Assembly: GCA_032718865.1 (NCBI GenBank)
Contig: JALUTQ010000046.1
Location: 1,240,001 to 1,304,000 of the forward strand
Direction: 5' to 3'
DNA: 64,000 bases
Origin: Tilletia caries
Lineage: Eukaryota > Basidiomycota > Exobasidiomycetes > Tilletiales > Tilletiaceae
The translations under genes were made by a program, and so were the position numbers. The number at the start of each line of letters is the position of its first letter. Positions within the stretch are counted from its first letter, which is position 1. Shown here piece by piece: positions 26,682 through 36,584 of the stretch. The notes beneath the pieces were generated by a model that saw only the letters and a program-made list of their open reading frames with translations, had not been told where the DNA came from and made no database searches.

Positions 26682-29600
26682 TCAGCTCTTTGTCTTTGTC
26701 TTGATGCGAATGCCCTGCGCCCGGAGCGCCTCTTCGAGGCCTGGAATTGAAGAAGTCATCGTCAGCTTCCCAGAGATAAACTCGACCGCGTGCCAGAGAA
26801 CACATACTCAGCCTCTCGTCGTCGTCCTCCCGTAGTCCATACGCAAGCACGAGCTCCTTCAGATGTCGACGCTCTGCCTCGTCCTGCAACTGTTTCGACC
26901 GGGTCTGGATCGCGATCGCAGCGCTCATCGGGACGTGGACGTCCGTAGTCTGCGTTGTGGGATGAAAGGGATGCTCAGACTCAGACCCACACCCACACTG
27001 CATCGCAACGATAAGAAACTCACCGTAGCCTTACTGCCCTTCTTCGACAGCAGCGAGAACCTCATATGCCCCTCCTGCTCCGATCGAGCGTTAGCACCCT
27101 CAGGCCTACCCGCAGTCTCCGTCGGCGCCATCGTCGTCGTCGAACGACCAAACGGAGTAGACGGGCCACGCTGCAGCATCGGCAGACCCGCATGGATTAA
27201 GTTCCGCTGTCGACTCGATTGCCCGGCACCGACACCGCCCGGGTTACTCTCAGCTATCATCTTCGCGAGTTCCCGATCGAAGTCCTCGTCTGCCCTTCGG
27301 TTGTCCTCCGCCAGTCGGTCGAGCTCGATCGCCCTCTGGTCGTCTTCGAGGCCCTCCTCGTCCTCCTCTTCGTCTTCATCCTCATCGTCATCGTCATCCT
27401 CGTCCTCATCATCTCCCGACGAATCGCTGTCGCCGTCCTCGTCGTCATCGCTATCGCTCTCGTCCTCTTCACCCACCTCCTCTTCCCCCGCCACCACAGG
27501 AGCCGCATGCGTCTGCTGCAGAGCAAACATCTCATCCACCGCCAACGCCACCTCCTCAAACTGCGTCTTGAACGCCAAACCAGGTCGGAGCGCCTCGAGC
27601 GTGTCGCTCAGCATGAAGTCGATCTCCATCGGCAACGGCTGCATCTTCGACAGCACATAGAGGTTGAAGAACGTCAAAAAGGAGTCGAGACGCTTCTTGA
27701 GCGAGCCTTGATCGAAGCACGCCCCGCAGGCATCCAGTAAAGTGCAGATAAGGCGGATCCGGAAGTAGTCGTCCGGCGCGTCCAAGGGCGTAAATTGGCC
27801 AGGTAAAGGTCGGCCGTACGGATGTCCAAACGTAGTGAAACTCCACAGCTGATCAAAGACCAACTTACTGTTGATCAGCCGGTAGTTGTACAGCTCGCCA
27901 AAGTACCGCAATACTGCCACTCGCCGCTGGTTGAACTGGAATACGTTCGTTTCCAGCCCGGCAACGACAGCTTCGCAGACCTGCTCCAACACCTCGATGA
28001 CAAAGTCCGGGTGATAGGTCTGCAATTCGAAGAGCAAGATCGCGAGCAGATGTACGTTGCCGAACTTGATCCGCCACGGCTTCGTGAACGCCTTGAAGAG
28101 GTATTTCCGCACAGCAGGGTCGTCCCATGCCATCTTCCGCAGCAGCTTCAGCACCTTCTCCAGCGTCCTCTTCGCCAGCATGTCGTAGAACAGATGCCGG
28201 ATGTACAGCTCGATCGGCAGTCGTTTCTTCTGTTCGATCGCTTTGCGCTCCGGAGGGTTGCAGAAGTAATATGCATTGTCGAGGAGCAGAAGGAAGCGTT
28301 GATCGATATGGGTGGACGCCCGCTTTCTCCGTAAGAGTTCGAGCGTGTTCTTCATCCGTTCGCTCGTCTGCTCGGTTCGGAGCAGGAAACGTCCGCAGGT
28401 CTCGAGGAGGATGGAAAGAGTTTCGATGCTGTAGGTTGAGAAGTCGTCCAGCAATACTTTGAGGCAGTGGAAGATGACGTGGATGGGAGTGACCTTGAAC
28501 TTTGTGAGCTCAGCGAGGTATTGGGCATTCTGAGTGGTGATGCACAGGAAGCAGAGCCACCTAGTCAGCCTTGATGCAGATTGTAGACGGAAGCATGCTA
28601 CGAAAGACTCACCCTTGCACGCTTTTCGGTCCACTCGGGCAAGCGCTTCTTGTGGATCACCCGGAACTCATCGTTCAGCTACGCAGGGAAGGAGACTAGT
28701 CAGTTGCAACGCTCCTCAAACACAAATCGCACCTGCTCGGGCTGCACCGCAGAAGCCACTCACCCATGCCACCACCCCGCCCCCGACATCTGGCATGTAC
28801 TTGTTCAACAGAGCAACCAAGCGAGCGTAGTACGGCGCCAAATCCGACCGATTCCTAGAGATCGACGATATTGTCCGCATAATTCGCCCCCGATTCGCTT
28901 TCGTATTCAGGAACCCAAACTCAATGGCCGCATTGTCGATGGCGTCCCTACTCGTGAGCTCGGGCAGCCGCATGAGCAACACGTTCATCTTTGCCGAGGC
29001 ACTTCCAGGTTCATCTGATGCCGTCTCCGCGGTCGGGATCGGAAGGTCTTCGTCTTCCTCTGCGAATTCCTTGAAGACGGATATTGGACTGCCGGGAGCA
29101 CTACCGCTGGCTCGAGGCGTGGCCGCGCCATCTTCGTGTTCGATTCCTTCCATCTCGTCAACTGCAGCAGCCGTCCCCGCCGGCGCATCGCCTGAGCCAT
29201 CCTCCTTCGGCTTCTCATTCCACCCGGTACGAGAGAGTTTAGCGTTGAGCGCAGGATTGGAGCCTGCCAGTAACAGATCCATCGGCACTTGGTCTCGCAG
29301 GTCCGGAACATCTTCGTAGAATCGACGGGTGTCTTCGTCTTCCCATGGTAATCTCCCAGAAGAGTAGTCTTCATCGTCGCGTTCGAAGGCGGACTTGGCG
29401 TCCAGGTTGAGGCCGATACTGCTTGACTGTACACTTTCGGCGAGCTTTGGCATGGGAAGGTCCAATAGCTCTGCAAGTCTGTAAGGGGATTGAAGTGCGT
29501 AAGCGAGATTCGCTGCGCTCGCACTGGTATTCAAGACGTCAGATCAACGTACTGTCGGGCGCTGTCCAATAGCTTCTCAAACGTCTTTGTGGTCTTCTCG

Positions 29601-30853
29601 AAGGTTTGTTGGCGATCCTCAAAGATTTCTCCGGAGCGAATGTATGCTTCATGATTGCGCCGGTCTTGCTCTTGGAGACGCTACACTCAGCAGAGAAGAC
29701 ACAGCTTTTAGATCGATAAGATGCGACGCGGGTAACACAGTCTTTTCAAGACTCACCTCATGCTCGCGGACAATACGTCTCCTCAAGGTCTCGAAGTACG
29801 TCGCGAGCAGTTTCTGCAGCTTGTCCTTCTGCTCGAGAGTGACGAGCTCGGGTAGCTGGTCAGCTGAGGGTTCCGCCTGCGCTTCGGCCGGAGTAGGCGC
29901 TGGTGCATTAGCAGGTGAGAGGAGAGTCGCTCCCAGCGCTTTCAGCAGGGTGGTGAGAATGGGAATATTGGCGTGTTCTCGATCATTGGAGAGCTGGCAT
30001 ACATGCTCCGGTCAGTAACACTTTTCAGACAACAGAAGTGATTCAGGAATGAGCACGTACCAGGTCCTTGATGATCTTGAACAGCCAGTCGATGCTCGCG
30101 TGCTCGCTCCGTTGCTTATCAACACTTCCCAGCAATTGGACGAGCGCCAGCTCGGCCACTACGCGAAGCAGGCCCTTTTGCCGTTGCACCCGAGAAGCCT
30201 CGTCCCTTTCGCGCTGCTCAGCCGAGGTAGCTTGTAGGACGGCCTTGGAAGGAGGGCTGAGCAGGGAACCTAGCAGCTCCGTCAGCGGAACGGACAGGGC
30301 ACTGGGTCCGAAACGCTTGTGCAACGCCGTCAGTACCTGCGAACAAAGGCATCAGAAGATCTCCAGCAGTTATTGCGGAACGGAAGATCCGAGGCGACTT
30401 AGGCTGACTCACCTCAGCGGCCGCCAAATAATCCTTCAAGCTCGAGCATCGCGACAGGCCGTCCGGGACCATTTGCACGACCTCCTCGACATACTTGTCC
30501 AGATTGAGCGTGGCGATGTCCTTGAGCGCCGCATCCCGGGACTCAAGGCCCAGACCCTGCTTTACGCGCTTGACAAAGGCGGTGTTCTTCTTGAGGGAGC
30601 TGTCCAGTGCGCCTGTTGGCGGCGAGGGTCCTGATGCCCATGTGTCCAGGTTGGCTGCCCTGAGCGCGGCCCGCTTCTTGTCTCGCTCCTGGGTGGCCTT
30701 GACGGCGACTGCTGAGCTAGCTGGAGCGGCTGACACGGCGTCCGCGCTCGCTGCCGCCTTGCTGCTTCCTGCCGCTGCCATCGTCGAGCTCGTGTCTTTG
30801 TGCTTCTGCCAGGTCTTCTGATGATCCGAAGCTGAGCCGCTGCACTTGGCCAT
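26682..30853 (-). CDS. UPF2: UPF2/NMD2 nonsense-mediated decay factor
   Basis: Nine exons: 30853-30413, 30336-30061, 29993-29757, 29680-29553, 29478-28764, 28678-28613, 28529-27024, 26949-26808 and 26740-26682; 1,189 aa. The first MIF4G domain begins with LDSSLKKNTAFVKRVKQGL, a UPF2 hallmark. The second holds LPWEDEDTRRFYEDVPDL and DNAAIEFGFLNTKANRGRI. The third holds LAELTKFKVTPIHVIFHCLK, LDNAYYFCNPPERKAI and RRVAVLRYFGELYNYRL. A long Asp/Glu block follows (residues ~985-1045). The UPF1-binding tail has FSLLSKKGSKAT joined to TTDVHVPMSAAIAIQTRSKQ. UPF2 bridges UPF1 and UPF3 on exon-junction or long-3'-UTR messages in the cytoplasm. The protein is close to the yeast homologue in size and shorter than the human one, with a short N-terminal tail. 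It is divergently paired with the FAN1 gene. Confidence 0.96.
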
Positions 30854-31099
30854 CGTGAGGTGGTGGTGGGATATGATGACCCTGTTGCTATGCAGCAGCA
30901 CACACGTCAGATTTTGTTTTGAGACCATCACCTACCTTCACGACGCGCCTCGAGAGCGAGCGAGACAGGGACGCGCCTGGATGGACGCGATCCGTAGACA
31001 TGAGCACTGACCGCTGACCGCGCTGTCACTGCCGCTGCCGCTACTGCCTGTCGAGTGTGAGGTCGTCCCGCCCGCTGTGAGCGCAGCCTTGTTGTCGCC
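30854..31099. promoter_or_regulatory. Compact bidirectional promoter between UPF2 and the FAN1 gene
   Basis: Only 246 bases separate the two divergent start codons. No TATA box is obvious. The region is GC-rich with CGCTGCCGCTGCCGCTACTGCC-like runs near 31020-31050. Confidence 0.55.
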
Positions 31100-34000
31100 A
31101 TGCCTCTGCACCTCGCCCAGCACAAGAGCTACCACCCGTACAACGAGAAGAACAAGGAGCGCGTTCGCAAGGACGAGGAGCAGGAGCGCCTGCGTCTCGA
31201 GACTGAGGAACGTCAGCGTCACGACGCCGAGTCAGACGCGCGTATTGAGGCTCTGCGGAGGACTAAAGATGCTTCCTCCGGAGCGAAAGAGGGGAGCTCC
31301 AGTCGAAGTGAGCAGGCTGCCCGGCAACCGCAGCACATCAACTTCTTCGAGGACCTAGAGGCCAGCTCGAGAAGAGGGCCGGGTTCACAGGCGGGGCCGT
31401 CATCGTCTCGGTCGAATCGACACCCTAACGCTGCGGAGAAACAGCGAAAGAACGACGCTTGTCTGGACCGGGTGACGCTTGCGCATGCCCTGGGCGGACC
31501 TACCGTGGCAGAAGATCGCCAACCCTGGTATTCTGATCGCGACCTTCAGTCCGCTGCCGACCGCAAGAGGTCTACGGAACAGAAACTCAAAGCCGCTCGT
31601 CGAGACAGCACAGCGAAGAGCCAACAGGATCCCATGAAGGCGATGCACAGCATGCTTGCCAAACGGAAGGAGACGCATGAACAGCGAGATCGTGCCAGAA
31701 CGAAGGAATCCCCCTATCGGGAACCGGCCTCTCCTGCACTTTGGACCCAGACAGGCGACTATTCTGACCAATTCAATCGAGATGCTGTTAGGGAAGCCCG
31801 AAAACGCAAACGAGGGTCTAGTCCAACACCTGACTCACATCGGCGTTCTTTGGGCAATGATGGGAACGACCGCCGCGAAGGGAAGCGTCGAGCTCGTGAC
31901 GATCCGGATGAGGAGGCCTCAACCTCGCCGCGTTGGCGAGAATCGCGATTTTCCGACACCTACAACCAAGGTAGCTCGAGCAGGTCTGCATATCATGGTC
32001 AAGACGCCGGACGGAACTCTTCTCGCGCTCATGAGCATTCTCGACAAGGTGCGTCCGACTTGATTCCTTCTTCACATGACCTTAGTTCTCACTTCACTGC
32101 TGGGCTCCCAGGTGGCACGCAATTATCCGCTCTGTCCGATATGGATCTGCCTGGGGCTGCGTACATCAGCGTCAAGTCGCCCCCTTCTACTGCGGCTAGC
32201 TCCTCAGAAATGGCTTTCTCCTTTCCACCTTGCGGTCAGGCACTTCCCCCTCCCAGATTCAACACGTACTCACACGAACCTACCCTCTCTTCCTCTTCCG
32301 CGACCTCCCTGGACGGCTTATCTTCCGCGCCCGTTCGTATTCCATCGTCTTCCTTTGATGACATCAAGAGAGAGCCGGACAGCGACGACATTCCGATTGC
32401 AGATCTGGTCGACACTGATGCCGACTTCGAGCCTGACCACAACGCTGCTCCGCCGCGAAGATATGACCCATACGCTGATTCAGATGTGGACTCTGTCAGC
32501 CCGTCTCCCCCGGCAAGAAAGGCAGAGTCTTCATCTGGCACTGTGTTCTCAGGACCCTCTCGATCGAATAATTCAAGCTCAACCAGCATCAGCATGACTT
32601 CTCCCGTCAAGTCATCGCAGCAAATCCCAGCCTCGCCTGCATCAATAATACCTTCGATCAAGATAGAACCGTCTTCAGGTCAGTCGGCGTTGCTCAAAGT
32701 CCAGGAGGAGATTGCTTCGACAGCTTCGAGTGGCAAAGCCGACGACCAAATGCCAGCAAGTATCAAGACCGAATCACAGTCGCAACAGCTTCCATTGCAG
32801 CCTCCTCAGTCAAGCCTTCAAGCCCTTCCAACTCTCGAAAAAGGAGACACGGCCTTTCATTTCACCCCTGAGGGTGGAAACCAAGACGATCTACCGCGGC
32901 CTTGTCCGCCACTCACACTCATCGATGTACAGCGGACAGGTCTCCTCCCAAGCCCATGGCGCCTTTCGACCTCTGCTGCTCTCATCAACAACTTAATGCC
33001 ACCCCTCACTCAGAGCTCGGAGTATGACGAGCTCGCCCCGGACAACAGTCAGATGTCAGTTTCGAATGAGGAAGTAGTGCCACCTCTCACTCAAAGCTCA
33101 GAGTACGACGAGCTCGCCCCGGACAACAGTCAGATGTCCGTCTCGAATGAGGACGTAGTGCCACCTCCGGTCACTCCCCAACGTCAAAGTGGACGTGCCA
33201 CACAAGAGGTCGCCCATCAGTCGAGTCCACAGCCAGCCCACGAAACAAGTGCGATTGAGATGGATGCAGACGTATTCCAGACTACCACTACCGAAACAGG
33301 TACCGAACAGCCGACGACCGTCGAGGGGATTGTATCTGCGCAAGGAGCTGAACCCATGGAAGAGCCAGAGCGGTCTCAACAAGAAAAATGGGCCGAAGGC
33401 ATCTGGCGCTCACAAAAGTTTCGGGAACCAAGGCCCGTTGTGCTCAACGCTTTTGAACGCATGCAAATGCAAGCGCGTTCAGCAGCTGCTGGTCGAGCTC
33501 CGCCCAAAGTCGAAAATCCTCAAGATCCAGATGACTCTGGAGTGAAAATGCCCAATGTCGCAGATCCGCAAGCTACTGGAGCCAACGGAACTGACACGCT
33601 TGCCAACGTGGACATCAAATTCCGAGAATCCATGTATCCTTCGGTCCTCACAGAGATGATCGACACGGTCTTGGAACACGAGGCATTCTTGTTCTCCACA
33701 AACGAGGTCGCCTTTCTACAAACGTATGCGAAGTTATCTTACGAAGCTCGATATCTGTTCTCTCGCTTGATCGGGCGGAAGCACATGTGGCACCGAGTCA
33801 ATCTCTTCAAGAAGTACGACACCGATATCAAGGACATGGTTGCAACTGTTCGGGAGTTAGCTCAGCCTCGGTTCGAGCTCGAGGCGCAGCACAGTCAGCA
33901 TGTGTGCAACCAGTCGACTGCGGACGAACCGCTCCTCACACGCTTTGCGTACACACAGAAGGATCTCGGCTTTGAAGATCGGATCGCTGACATGCTCGAC

Positions 34001-36584
34001 CTGATGAGTGTAGAAGAGCTCAAGGCGCTAGCCAAGAAGATGAACATACTTAAGCCGGCCTATACCACTCGCGCCCAACTCATCGAAGTGCTCATGGCAG
34101 TCAAAGGCCAAAGCACACTGGCTGGACCAGACAAGTGGCGGATGAGCCCTAGCTCAAGCAAAACACAACGCACATCAAGCTCCTCCGGGACACCCTCAAA
34201 ACGTGACAATCATCTTCGTCAACTGACACTCAACTTCGACTTGGGCGGCAACAGGACGGCCCAGAGCAGTCAGCTCAAGAGCAGTTTGCAGAGCATCATC
34301 GGTGATGTTATTTACGTGCCGGGTGAAGTCAGGAGCCTGATCGACCGACTCGCTCTGGTGTACTACCGAGGGAACGCTTACAATGGCGTCGGCAAGGCGC
34401 TCACACAGGCTGTGCTTGCCCGGTGCGGTAGGAGGAATTATCCAGAGGTAGAGGTGCGACGTTCGGACGATATCTTCAAGAGCCGTGATCAACTGAAGCG
34501 GTACGAACGGGCATGTGCTCAAGAATACAGGATGGTCCTGCTTGTCGATGGCACGTATGAAGTCACTCGGACCGTCTCGAACAATGCGGAAAGTTACATT
34601 GGGCAGGCTGCCTACGATGCCAACGCCGAAGAGATCCCAGCAGCAAACACGGCCGAAGCACACGGGGCGGCCATCAAGCTGTTCGAAGAAGTCTTTCAAG
34701 AATGGAAAGATGCGGTTGCGGAGTGCGAGGTGGAGTCTCCGGACGGAGGCGATCGGATCACATACCATCGTATGCGCTTCCACCCCGGCTGGCCTCTGAC
34801 GCGAATCATGTACAAGGTGAGCCGCATATGAGGGCTTGCTTTGACAACGCTTTGACACACACTTACAGAAATAAATCATGTTGCAGGCTGGCGCATGCTT
34901 TTCTCGCGTCCAAAAGCAAAACCGCGAGAAGGAGATTCTTAGACTGCTCCTCGGTCAAAAAGTCTTCTGTCAAGGCAGGCGAGGGGAATGGTATGACCGA
35001 TTGGCCCTCCTCGAGAACAGGTACTGCACCGATAAGGTCGCAGGTGCTCGACTGTCGCTCCAGATCGCCGTTCGCGGCATCGAAGATCCGGACACCCATT
35101 TCGTATATAAGGGAGCACTTGAGGCGCGAATCAAGGAGTTGGAAACGCGGAAGTCGATCAAGGTTCCTTTCAAAGAGCGACACCACTTTGGCCTCCACAA
35201 GCGAAAGGATTGCGAGGCGATTCAAATCTCCGGCGTCCGGCTTGATCGCATGTTTTCCAAGTCCGGTTCTTCTTCCTCGCTGCAGGCCATTTCGAGTCGG
35301 AACGATCAGCAGAATCCAAAGCAGGAGGCAAAGCAGAAGTGGACTCAGATATTTTCCAAGAAGCCGACTCCGGGCGGGCCTACAGCAGGATCTGGAACGT
35401 CGAAGATCAAGAAATCCACACGCGCCGGTCCCTCGAGTGCTTCACCGCTGCAGCGAAAGTCTCCCGACAAAGATATTGACACCTCTGGCTTCGTCAAGCG
35501 AGCCATCTTGCAGAAGGAGGTCACGGTCGAGCGTGTGGTGACATCACCGGGCAAGGGCAAGGGCAAACAAACTAGCTCACCGGGCAAGAGCGAGGAAAAC
35601 CCGATGGATGCTATCATGGGCCAGGATGATGAGGCCGATACGCCGGATGTGTACGAGGTGGTTGGCATGGAGATCAAGAGGGACTTGCACACCGTGTGGC
35701 GTGGTTTGGATAACGAACCCTGCCGCGTGGAACAGCTGTGTCTGCAGCATTTCGAGCAGGATGGCTTCAAAGGGTGAGCAAACTCTCATCCGGCCTTTGG
35801 CCCTCACCCTGCAGTGCTAACGCGAGGCTCTCTTTTCTTTTCGCGCCGTAGGGTCCATGACGAAGGCGGCGTTCTAACCATGCTGTTCGTGCTGGCAATG
35901 TGGGACGTCGTCTACATGCCAGTTGAAGGCGCATTCGAGACCAGATATCAGTCCGAACCGCTCGACATGCGAAGCGACGCTTTTGCGATTGGTGAGTCAG
36001 GGCCGCCAGGCCATGTGTTATCGCAGAGAGATCCGGACGCTGACTGAACTCTGCCTGCATTCGCAGTGCGTAAGGCACAAGTTAGAGCAAGACTTCACGA
36101 GATTGAGAAACAAGGCGGACTTGATTTCATCAAGGCTGTAGACGAACGCGAGCGACCGCGGCAGACTTGCGCGACCGGATGCAACTGGGACAAGTACTCC
36201 AGCGAAATGCTGATCGAGGTGGCCGATGTAAGTTGGAGTGAACTGAAATCATCTTCAAAGGAGGACTCAGTGCTGATTCGCACGACTCTACAGTGTCTGG
36301 GAGGCCTACCTCTGTCTATGATCTGCCAGATGCTCTGCGAAGAGCGTCAGCACTGCCAGAGCGGGATGCCGGACCTGTGCATATGGAAGGTGGCTACCAA
36401 AGAAGTGCGCTTTGTCGAGGTGAAAGGACCGGGCGACAAGTTACGGGAGAAGCAGAAGGTCTGGATAGACATCCTTGTCCGAGCCGGCGCGACGGTCCAG
36501 GTTGCTCAGGTCAGCGACAAGTCGCAGCCCTCGACGACGACTAAGCGCGAGTCGGGAAGCGCGAGACCGACGGCCAAGAAGTGA
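31100..36584 (+). CDS. FAN1: FAN1-type structure-specific nuclease with an N-terminal CIR_N/LENG1-like module
   Basis: Exons 31100-34816, 34887-35773, 35852-35991, 36067-36227 and 36294-36584; 1,731 aa. Residues 1-60 (MPLHLAQHKSYHPYNEKNKE) are a CIR_N domain. LENG1-like segments follow (PWYSDRD, then QDPMKAMHSMLAKRK near residues 145-195). A disordered region to about residue 840 contains an 81-bp tandem repeat. FAN1 starts with MYPSVLTEMIDTVLEHEAFL and continues through LSYEARYLFSRLIGRKHMW, YHRMRFHPGWPLTRIMYK and CQGRRGEWYDRLALLENRY. The VRR-NUC domain has GMPDLCIW (Asp1662) and FVEVKGPGD (Glu1677, Lys1679), the PD-(D/E)xK residues. FAN1 cuts flaps and interstrand crosslinks. An optional in-frame intron 32049-32111 may exist. 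No UBZ zinc finger is seen. A basic, disordered loop of about 145 residues interrupts the FAN1 core before KRDLHTVWRGLDNE. Confidence 0.92.
32999..33160 (+). repeat. 81-bp tandem duplication inside the FAN1 gene
   Basis: Two adjacent 81-bp copies (32999-33079 and 33080-33160) encode the 27-residue unit that starts PPLTQSSEYDELAPDNSQMS. I count seven base differences; six are silent and one is Glu to Asp. Confidence 0.95.

Follow-up and report, generated by a model that had tools for sequence, protein, structure and literature searches.

A spliceosomal LENG1 module joined in frame to a FAN1-type nuclease in Tilletia caries and related fungi

The stretch of DNA analysed here, called the window throughout, comprises 64,000 nucleotides of contig JALUTQ010000046.1 (positions 1,240,001 to 1,304,000) of Tilletia caries, whose genome assembly (GCA_032718865.1) holds 38.1 Mb in 40 contigs. 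On its plus strand lies a gene (Table 1) that we read as encoding a single polypeptide, in which the splicing protein LENG1 is followed by a long flexible linker and then by the DNA repair nuclease FAN1, with HTH, probable SAP, TPR and VRR-NUC domains; for this explanation taken as a whole we would put the chances at about even. That a LENG1 module is joined in frame to FAN1 had been proposed in a first-pass annotation of the same DNA and is confirmed by a frame of 1,239 codons together with matches to both proteins. The best protein match is P0001 of the bunt fungus Tilletia controversa.

The frame is open from 31100 to 34831, i.e. 1,243 codons up to the stop and exactly 1,239 up to the splice donor that follows 34816 in phase 0. 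When 31100-34816 was shuffled 300 times with its dinucleotides preserved, the longest open run over three frames reached 428 codons at most (mean 181), and frame 0 contained 35 stops on average and never fewer than 21. Four other long open reading frames (ORFs) of the window served to train a codon-usage score, which was compared between six frames in bins of 300 nucleotides. It was positive in frame and the highest of the six in all 12 bins from 31100 to 34699, linker included. Its lead was slim in two of them (31700-31999, 1.6 against 0.7, and 32300-32599, 15.3 against 14.4 for the minus strand), and it was negative in both bins directly upstream of 31100 and in the bin 34700-34999, which crosses an intron. 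The shuffles and the codon score rule out a chance open frame and therefore indicate that the middle of the stretch, the linker, is coding too. The first-pass annotation had described one exon in which the LENG1-like part has no stop of its own before FAN1. The open frame and the missing stop are borne out, but the stretch probably consists of two exons, split by a 63-nucleotide intron whose 21 residues are missing from P0001; the frame stays open whether this intron is kept or removed. Also missing from P0001 are the 22 residues encoded by a 66-nucleotide GT...AG stretch at 36228-36293, a length divisible by three. The model without both segments has 1,710 residues, the length of P0001, from which it differs at 24 of the 1,710.

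Table 1. Features of the LENG1-FAN1 gene (window coordinates; residue numbers refer to the unspliced frame)
Feature	Position	Strand	Evidence or remark
LENG1-FAN1 fusion gene	31100..36584	+	six-exon model, 1,710 residues, compared with T. controversa P0001
Likely exons	31100-32048, 32112-34816, 34887-35773, 35852-35991, 36067-36227, 36294-36584	+	
LENG1 N-terminal block, residues 1-57	31100..31270	+	phmmer, S. pombe LENG1 C5E4.10c (PDB 9s2g chain LG), E 5.6e-6
LENG1 block HINFFEDLE	31334..31360	+	found in fused and stand-alone LENG1 proteins
LENG1 blocks PWY and DPMKAM	31523..31645	+	P, W, Y and D, P among invariant columns of a 7-sequence LENG1 alignment
LENG1 C-terminal signature YSDQFNRDAVREAR	31760..31801	+	motif type shared with fused relatives and two stand-alone LENG1 proteins from agarics
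Long linker (some 600 residues if unspliced) holding three psi-K-x-E motifs and islands conserved in Tilletia	31820..33625	+	coding-like in frame
Probable intron, 63 nucleotides, in frame, stop-free	32049..32111	+	GTGCGT...CCCAG
psi-K-x-E motif IKRE (sumoylation-type consensus)	32363..32374	+	
psi-K-x-E motif IKIE	32657..32668	+	
psi-K-x-E motif IKTE	32762..32773	+	
81-nucleotide tandem duplication in linker, frame kept	32997..33167	+	Tandem Repeats Finder: period 81, 2.1 copies, 92% matches
FAN1 HTH domain, residues 850-922	33647..33865	+	PF21315 26.1 bits, E 8.2e-6; cut-off 27
Probable FAN1 SAP subdomain, residues 963-1004	33986..34111	+	PF21169 19.5 bits, E 0.00099; cut-off 27
Intron between HTH/SAP exon and TPR exon	34817..34886	+	GT...AG, phase 0; removed in the model that agrees with P0001
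Exon with FAN1 TPR domain	34887..35773	+	PF21170 26.3 bits; cut-off 24
VRR-NUC nuclease domain	36258..36515	+	PF08774 87.5 bits, E 8.7e-25; match on unspliced frame, begins inside last intron
Intact active-site motif	GMPDL 36363-36377, EVK 36417-36425	+	

The N-terminal part has in common with LENG1 (leukocyte receptor cluster member 1; C5E4.10c in Schizosaccharomyces pombe) the Cir_N-type block MPLxLxxxKSxxxYNxxNxERVRxDE, the motifs HINFW/HINFF, PWY and DPLKAM, and a C-terminal YxxxF-type motif, where YSDQFNRDAVREAR resembles, on comparison by eye, the C-terminus of turtle LENG1. A family profile made from seven LENG1 sequences matched a single chain in the PDB, 9s2g_LG (E 6.9e-13). What had been called a textbook CIR_N start is of the LENG1 type according to the S. 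pombe match and the profiles, from which, and not from Pfam Cir_N, we take the identity of this part. Pfam Cir_N reaches only 15.7 bits here against a cut-off of 22.6 and does not appear among the hmmscan matches at E 1; in the fused relatives P0008 and P0058 it passes the cut-off. CWC25 and CIR have a short Cir_N-type start in common with the fusion, and both identities were considered and rejected: the sequence matches LENG1 (phmmer, profiles), hmmscan detects no CWC25 domain (PF12542) in it, and the genome has CWC25 as a gene of its own (contig C22), which does carry PF12542. As the match is to LENG1 and not to CIR, the link to co-repressor complexes raised in the first-pass annotation is unsupported. 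Stand-alone LENG1 proteins measure 262-396 residues in other fungi and turtle, in a search that admitted only lengths near that of the query, and 198 in S. pombe; LENG1 of Tilletia, by contrast, is not a small protein on its own, its frame continuing into FAN1. Human LENG1 is described as a C-complex protein and as fully disordered (PMC3415423, PMC12952702); PMC9505925 reports that no LENG1 was found in the ciliate Stentor, and PMC11958768 makes no mention of the protein. One protein of Nannizzia gypsea (P0101), labelled 'homocitrate synthase', matches nearly the whole LENG1 profile and is apparently misnamed.

The remainder of the polypeptide agrees with FAN1 (Fanconi-associated nuclease 1) in the order HTH, probable SAP, TPR, VRR-NUC and in the PD...EVK motif, which is present in all 21 sequences checked, that of the window included. 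We count the HTH domain as present though it lies 0.9 bits under the Pfam cut-off, which is exceeded in P0008 and P0016, and the SAP segment aligns weakly with human FAN1. The fused relative P0016 matches human FAN1 with E 3.2e-53, and the modelled fold of P0008, a compact fused relative, matches human FAN1 chains with E down to 2.7e-33. In this model (mean predicted local distance difference test score, pLDDT, of 74) the FAN1 core is confident, as is the middle of the LENG1 helix at residues 16-60, and the linker at 320-417 is of low confidence. Activity as a 5' flap or crosslink nuclease is predicted for the fusion. Where animal FAN1 has its N-terminal UBZ, the Tilletia protein has LENG1 and a linker rich in psi-K-x-E motifs; hmmscan found no Pfam UBZ, and residues 1-842 of the unspliced frame hold only three scattered cysteines. 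The UBZ of FAN1 is presented as a FANCD2 platform in PMC11061109. The SAP part is followed by a QLTLNF segment (34220-34237), a possible partner-binding peptide; the pattern Q[LT][ST]LNF is shared by 10 of the 20 fused proteins.

The linker carries two islands conserved within Tilletia, DIKREPDSDDIPIADLV and PPLTQSSEYDELAP, and motifs of the psi-K-x-E type, the sumoylation consensus, defined here as [VILMF]-K-x-E. Twenty linkers were cut from fused proteins with lengths from 77 to 661 residues, the LENG1 C-terminal motif being included where present. Deep identity is below 0.1 along most of the linker. Together they contain 32 psi-K-x-E motifs where 2.48 are expected from 1,000 shuffles of their letters (shuffle maximum 8), with at least one motif in 15 of the 20. 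The corresponding counts were 1 against 2.9 expected for the LENG1 parts, 6 against 8.0 for stand-alone LENG1 proteins and 1 against 2.8 for ten other ORFs of the window, the background being drawn from these ORFs and from the parts of the proteins themselves. In 28 N-terminal stretches of FAN1 models that lack LENG1 and belong to the same clade (see below) there are 20 motifs against 1.6 expected; five FAN1 N-termini from outside the clade have none. The linker is likely, on this motif content, to be a SUMO-acceptor segment. Fan1 of S. pombe acts in crosslink repair and the SUMO ligase Pli1 in a different sub-pathway (PMC4045212). The 81-nucleotide duplication repeats the Tilletia-conserved TQSSEYDEL, of which T. 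controversa P0001 has two copies and P0002, P0003 and P0004 one each.

Searches of the genome gave a single match for VRR-NUC and a single match for the HTH/SAP part of FAN1. Three LENG1 queries, i.e. the LENG1 part of the window, an Irpex LENG1 and a smut-type LENG1, returned this locus alone at a meaningful E, everything else lying at E 0.46 or above, and the only gene over the Pfam Cir_N cut-off was CWC25. The stand-alone LENG1 homologue that the first-pass annotation had suggested looking for was thus not found with Cir_N or the three LENG1 queries, and neither was a second FAN1, with the limit that a gene in very short exons could escape such searches. Three weak matches of the LENG1 part (C28:364878-365162, C34:1252577-1252861 and C34:1286685-1286969; E 2.34-2.58) have near-equal scores over the same query range and look like copies of one repeated element.

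The joined order recurs in other fungi. A search with the LENG1 part, confined to long proteins, gave eight matches at E 10, from T. controversa, T. walkeri, T. horrida (two), Violaceomyces, Tilletiaria and two others, and all eight hold VRR-NUC and FAN1 domains. A FAN1 search yielded at least 71 proteins, among which a LENG1 scan added at least Exobasidium, Malassezia sp. CBS 17886, Parajaminaea, Jaminaea (two), Sympodiomycopsis, Testicularia and five others. In two of the three large protein searches, scoring was confined to the approximately 8,000 candidates with most words in common with the query, and the counts of fused and unfused proteins are therefore lower bounds. A FAN1 tree, made by a quick method with several long branches flagged and excluding P0011, P0014, P0019, P0030, P0031, P0033, P0034, P0039, P0040, P0044, P0045, P0052, P0055, P0061, P0068, P0071 and P0072, places 47 of 55 sequences in an Ustilaginomycotina clade (support 96). 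Within this clade 20 sequences have LENG1 blocks in the same model, and in another 4 the C-terminal motif of LENG1 shares an ORF with FAN1, so that LENG1 accompanies FAN1 in 24 of the 47. The subphylum has five classes in the NCBI taxonomy, and the named fused members fall in three of them, Malasseziomycetes, Ustilaginomycetes and Exobasidiomycetes. Outside the clade, LENG1 is absent from the FAN1 models (P0062-P0067, P0069 and P0070, from agarics, Rhodosporidiobolus, Lipomyces, Sorochytrium and one other).

Among the fused sequences, P0005, P0008, P0023, P0038, P0042, P0048 and P0050 come from a source whose calls elsewhere stop at inferred introns, and each is probably one unspliced ORF. In the FAN1 ORFs P0013, P0015, P0017 and P0018, FAN1 and the C-terminal motif of LENG1 share one reading frame, and in Exobasidium-type sequences short LENG1 ORFs stop at an inferred intron within LENG1. 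Ten short LENG1 ORFs (P0073-P0080, P0082 and P0083) were considered as stand-alone genes but are read as exon ends: on a profile of 196 positions, all their matches stop at 172 or 173, short of a conserved block. The fused proteins are mostly labelled hypothetical, unnamed or 'Fanconi-associated nuclease' in the databases, with one 'phosphodiesterase I'. P0006 of Violaceomyces palustris (2,857 residues) continues after LENG1 and FAN1 into PHD and MYST acetyltransferase domains and is perhaps a merged model or a triple fusion. A FAN1 attributed to the fern Adiantum nelumboides (P0011), which shows 73% identity to P0008 and closely resembles Meira P0010, probably reflects fungal contamination of the fern assembly.

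Because the same fusion is met in all three classes reached, its simplest history would be a single origin before Malasseziomycetes, Ustilaginomycetes and Exobasidiomycetes parted; it is possible that the neighbouring genes were joined several times independently, and the LENG1 tree, with 14 of 29 inner branches open, is too weak to date the event. That the fused gene is real and old we regard as very likely.

Several observations weigh against a fusion that is universal in the clade and works as one unit. The same joined order, which the first-pass annotation had proposed seeking in related genomes, is present in many fungi over three classes but not in all relatives: 23 of the 47 clade sequences show neither LENG1 blocks nor the C-terminal motif, among them Ustilago, Sporisorium, Melanopsichium, Kalmanozyma, Pseudozyma, Thecaphora, Ceraceosorus and Meira, and only some of the 23 are explained as ORF pieces starting in the linker. 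The FAN1 models of Ustilago and Sporisorium begin just before HTH; in Pseudozyma flocculosa, Thecaphora and Ceraceosorus bombacis the region ahead of it is longer but likewise lacks LENG1. The fused or unfused state changes at least 7 times on the FAN1 tree, a count that cannot separate gain from loss. Three LENG1 proteins (P0081, P0084 and P0086) apparently stand alone with tails of their own; they group with Testicularia in the LENG1 tree (support 94, quick method). One of them, P0086 (239 residues), comes from a contig of 7,144 bases, as does, from the same source, the FAN1 P0025, which lies beside Ustilago and Sporisorium in the FAN1 tree. From these equal contig sizes the two genes are probably neighbours on one contig; equal-sized contigs likewise pair P0076 with P0015, P0079 with P0018 and P0089 with P0061. 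In the Ustilaginales the genes may have separated again, or dual products may be made. Within the fused proteins, Malassezia P0058 matches neither HTH nor SAP, P0008 and P0016 do not match SAP, and much of LENG1 and the linker is of low confidence in the P0008 model. With regard to the motifs, the FAN1 parts are themselves mildly rich in psi-K-x-E (34 against 18.1 expected), five of the 20 linkers lack it (Violaceomyces, Tilletiaria, P0050, Malassezia and Testicularia), and related linkers are not independent of one another.

As no other LENG1 was found in the genome, the fusion would have to supply the splicing role of LENG1. Its N-terminal helix would dock on late spliceosomes, as in other eukaryotes, and the linker would act as a leash that holds FAN1 near transcribed, spliced chromatin, where it may cut flap or crosslink structures near spliced transcripts; SUMO attached to the psi-K-x-E motifs could regulate or release the nuclease. 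That the fusion tethers FAN1 to late spliceosomes is put forward tentatively, with odds somewhat short of even, and the recruitment of the nuclease to splicing sites or R-loops suggested in the first-pass annotation is likewise conjectural. The more specific proposal, in which the only LENG1 has been kept joined to the only FAN1 across a large fungal group as a spliceosome-borne, SUMO-regulated nuclease for R-loop, flap or crosslink structures at places where splicing coincides with damaged or colliding DNA, is speculative, and we would expect it to fail rather than hold; on that reading, LENG1 and FAN1 would be partners, so far unrecognised, in eukaryotes at large.

The strongest rival is a locus with two products: a FAN1, which may or may not include LENG1, and a short LENG1 that arises through alternative splicing, early polyadenylation or cleavage. 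The union would then serve joint expression rather than a joint protein. This would fit the probable placing of P0086, with its own tail, and P0025 on one contig, the fused model of Testicularia P0022 in the very group where the stand-alone LENG1 proteins fall, and the many FAN1 models near Ustilago and Sporisorium that start right before HTH. It fits less well with a Tilletia LENG1 that lacks a closing stop and a linker that scores as coding throughout, or with the seven relatives that appear to hold the whole fusion as one unspliced ORF, and we judge it rather unlikely. Next comes a neutral fusion, in which an ancient read-through between two adjacent genes became fixed and the halves work as before, joined by a link without a role. 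The wide range of linker lengths, the low deep identity and the possible break-up of the joined order in Ustilaginales are what such a history would leave behind; a joined state in all three classes reached, and a linker with a recurrent motif type and Tilletia-conserved islands, are not readily expected from it, and we consider it improbable. There is finally the prospect that two adjacent genes have wrongly been read as one. The gene models of the relatives are probably automatic, and P0006 with its acetyltransferase may be a merged one, yet 1,239 stop-free codons stand against a shuffle maximum of 428, the join recurs in many relatives, and where Exobasidium-type LENG1 ORFs end they do so at an inferred intron inside LENG1, the C-terminal motif being found in the FAN1 frame of P0013, P0015, P0017 and P0018. 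An artefact of this kind is very hard to credit.

Fusions that have been kept for a long time often mark proteins that work together. The union of LENG1 and FAN1 in smut, bunt and related fungi thus suggests an unsuspected link between splicing and DNA repair, and what is new in it is a FAN1 with the spliceosomal LENG1 in front. No description of a LENG1-FAN1 fusion, or of VRR-NUC with Cir_N, was found in the literature searched, most subscription papers and preprints lying outside it. Fused Fanconi-pathway gene models, apparently of FANCM and XPF, are mentioned for chytrids in PMC11061109; these likewise join two fungal components, but there both partners are repair factors, whereas in Tilletia one partner is a splicing factor. 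LENG1 seems little studied, with 7 papers in the searched literature naming it alongside the spliceosome and none naming C5E4.10c, and an old LENG1-FAN1 fusion would tie late splicing to crosslink or R-loop repair in a concrete and testable way. It also bears on how a fungal FAN1 that lacks UBZ is brought to its substrates, its linker offers SUMO regulation that can be tested, and lineages in which the two genes are joined can be compared with those in which they appear to be separate.

Upstream of the fusion gene and divergent from it, on the minus strand at 26925-29534, lies UPF2, a nonsense-mediated decay factor, recognised by an Upf2 domain (45 bits) and a MIF4G domain (153 bits) in the ORF 26925-28634. 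The ORF closest to the fusion gene, 30218-30931, has no family match and may be the first exon of UPF2.

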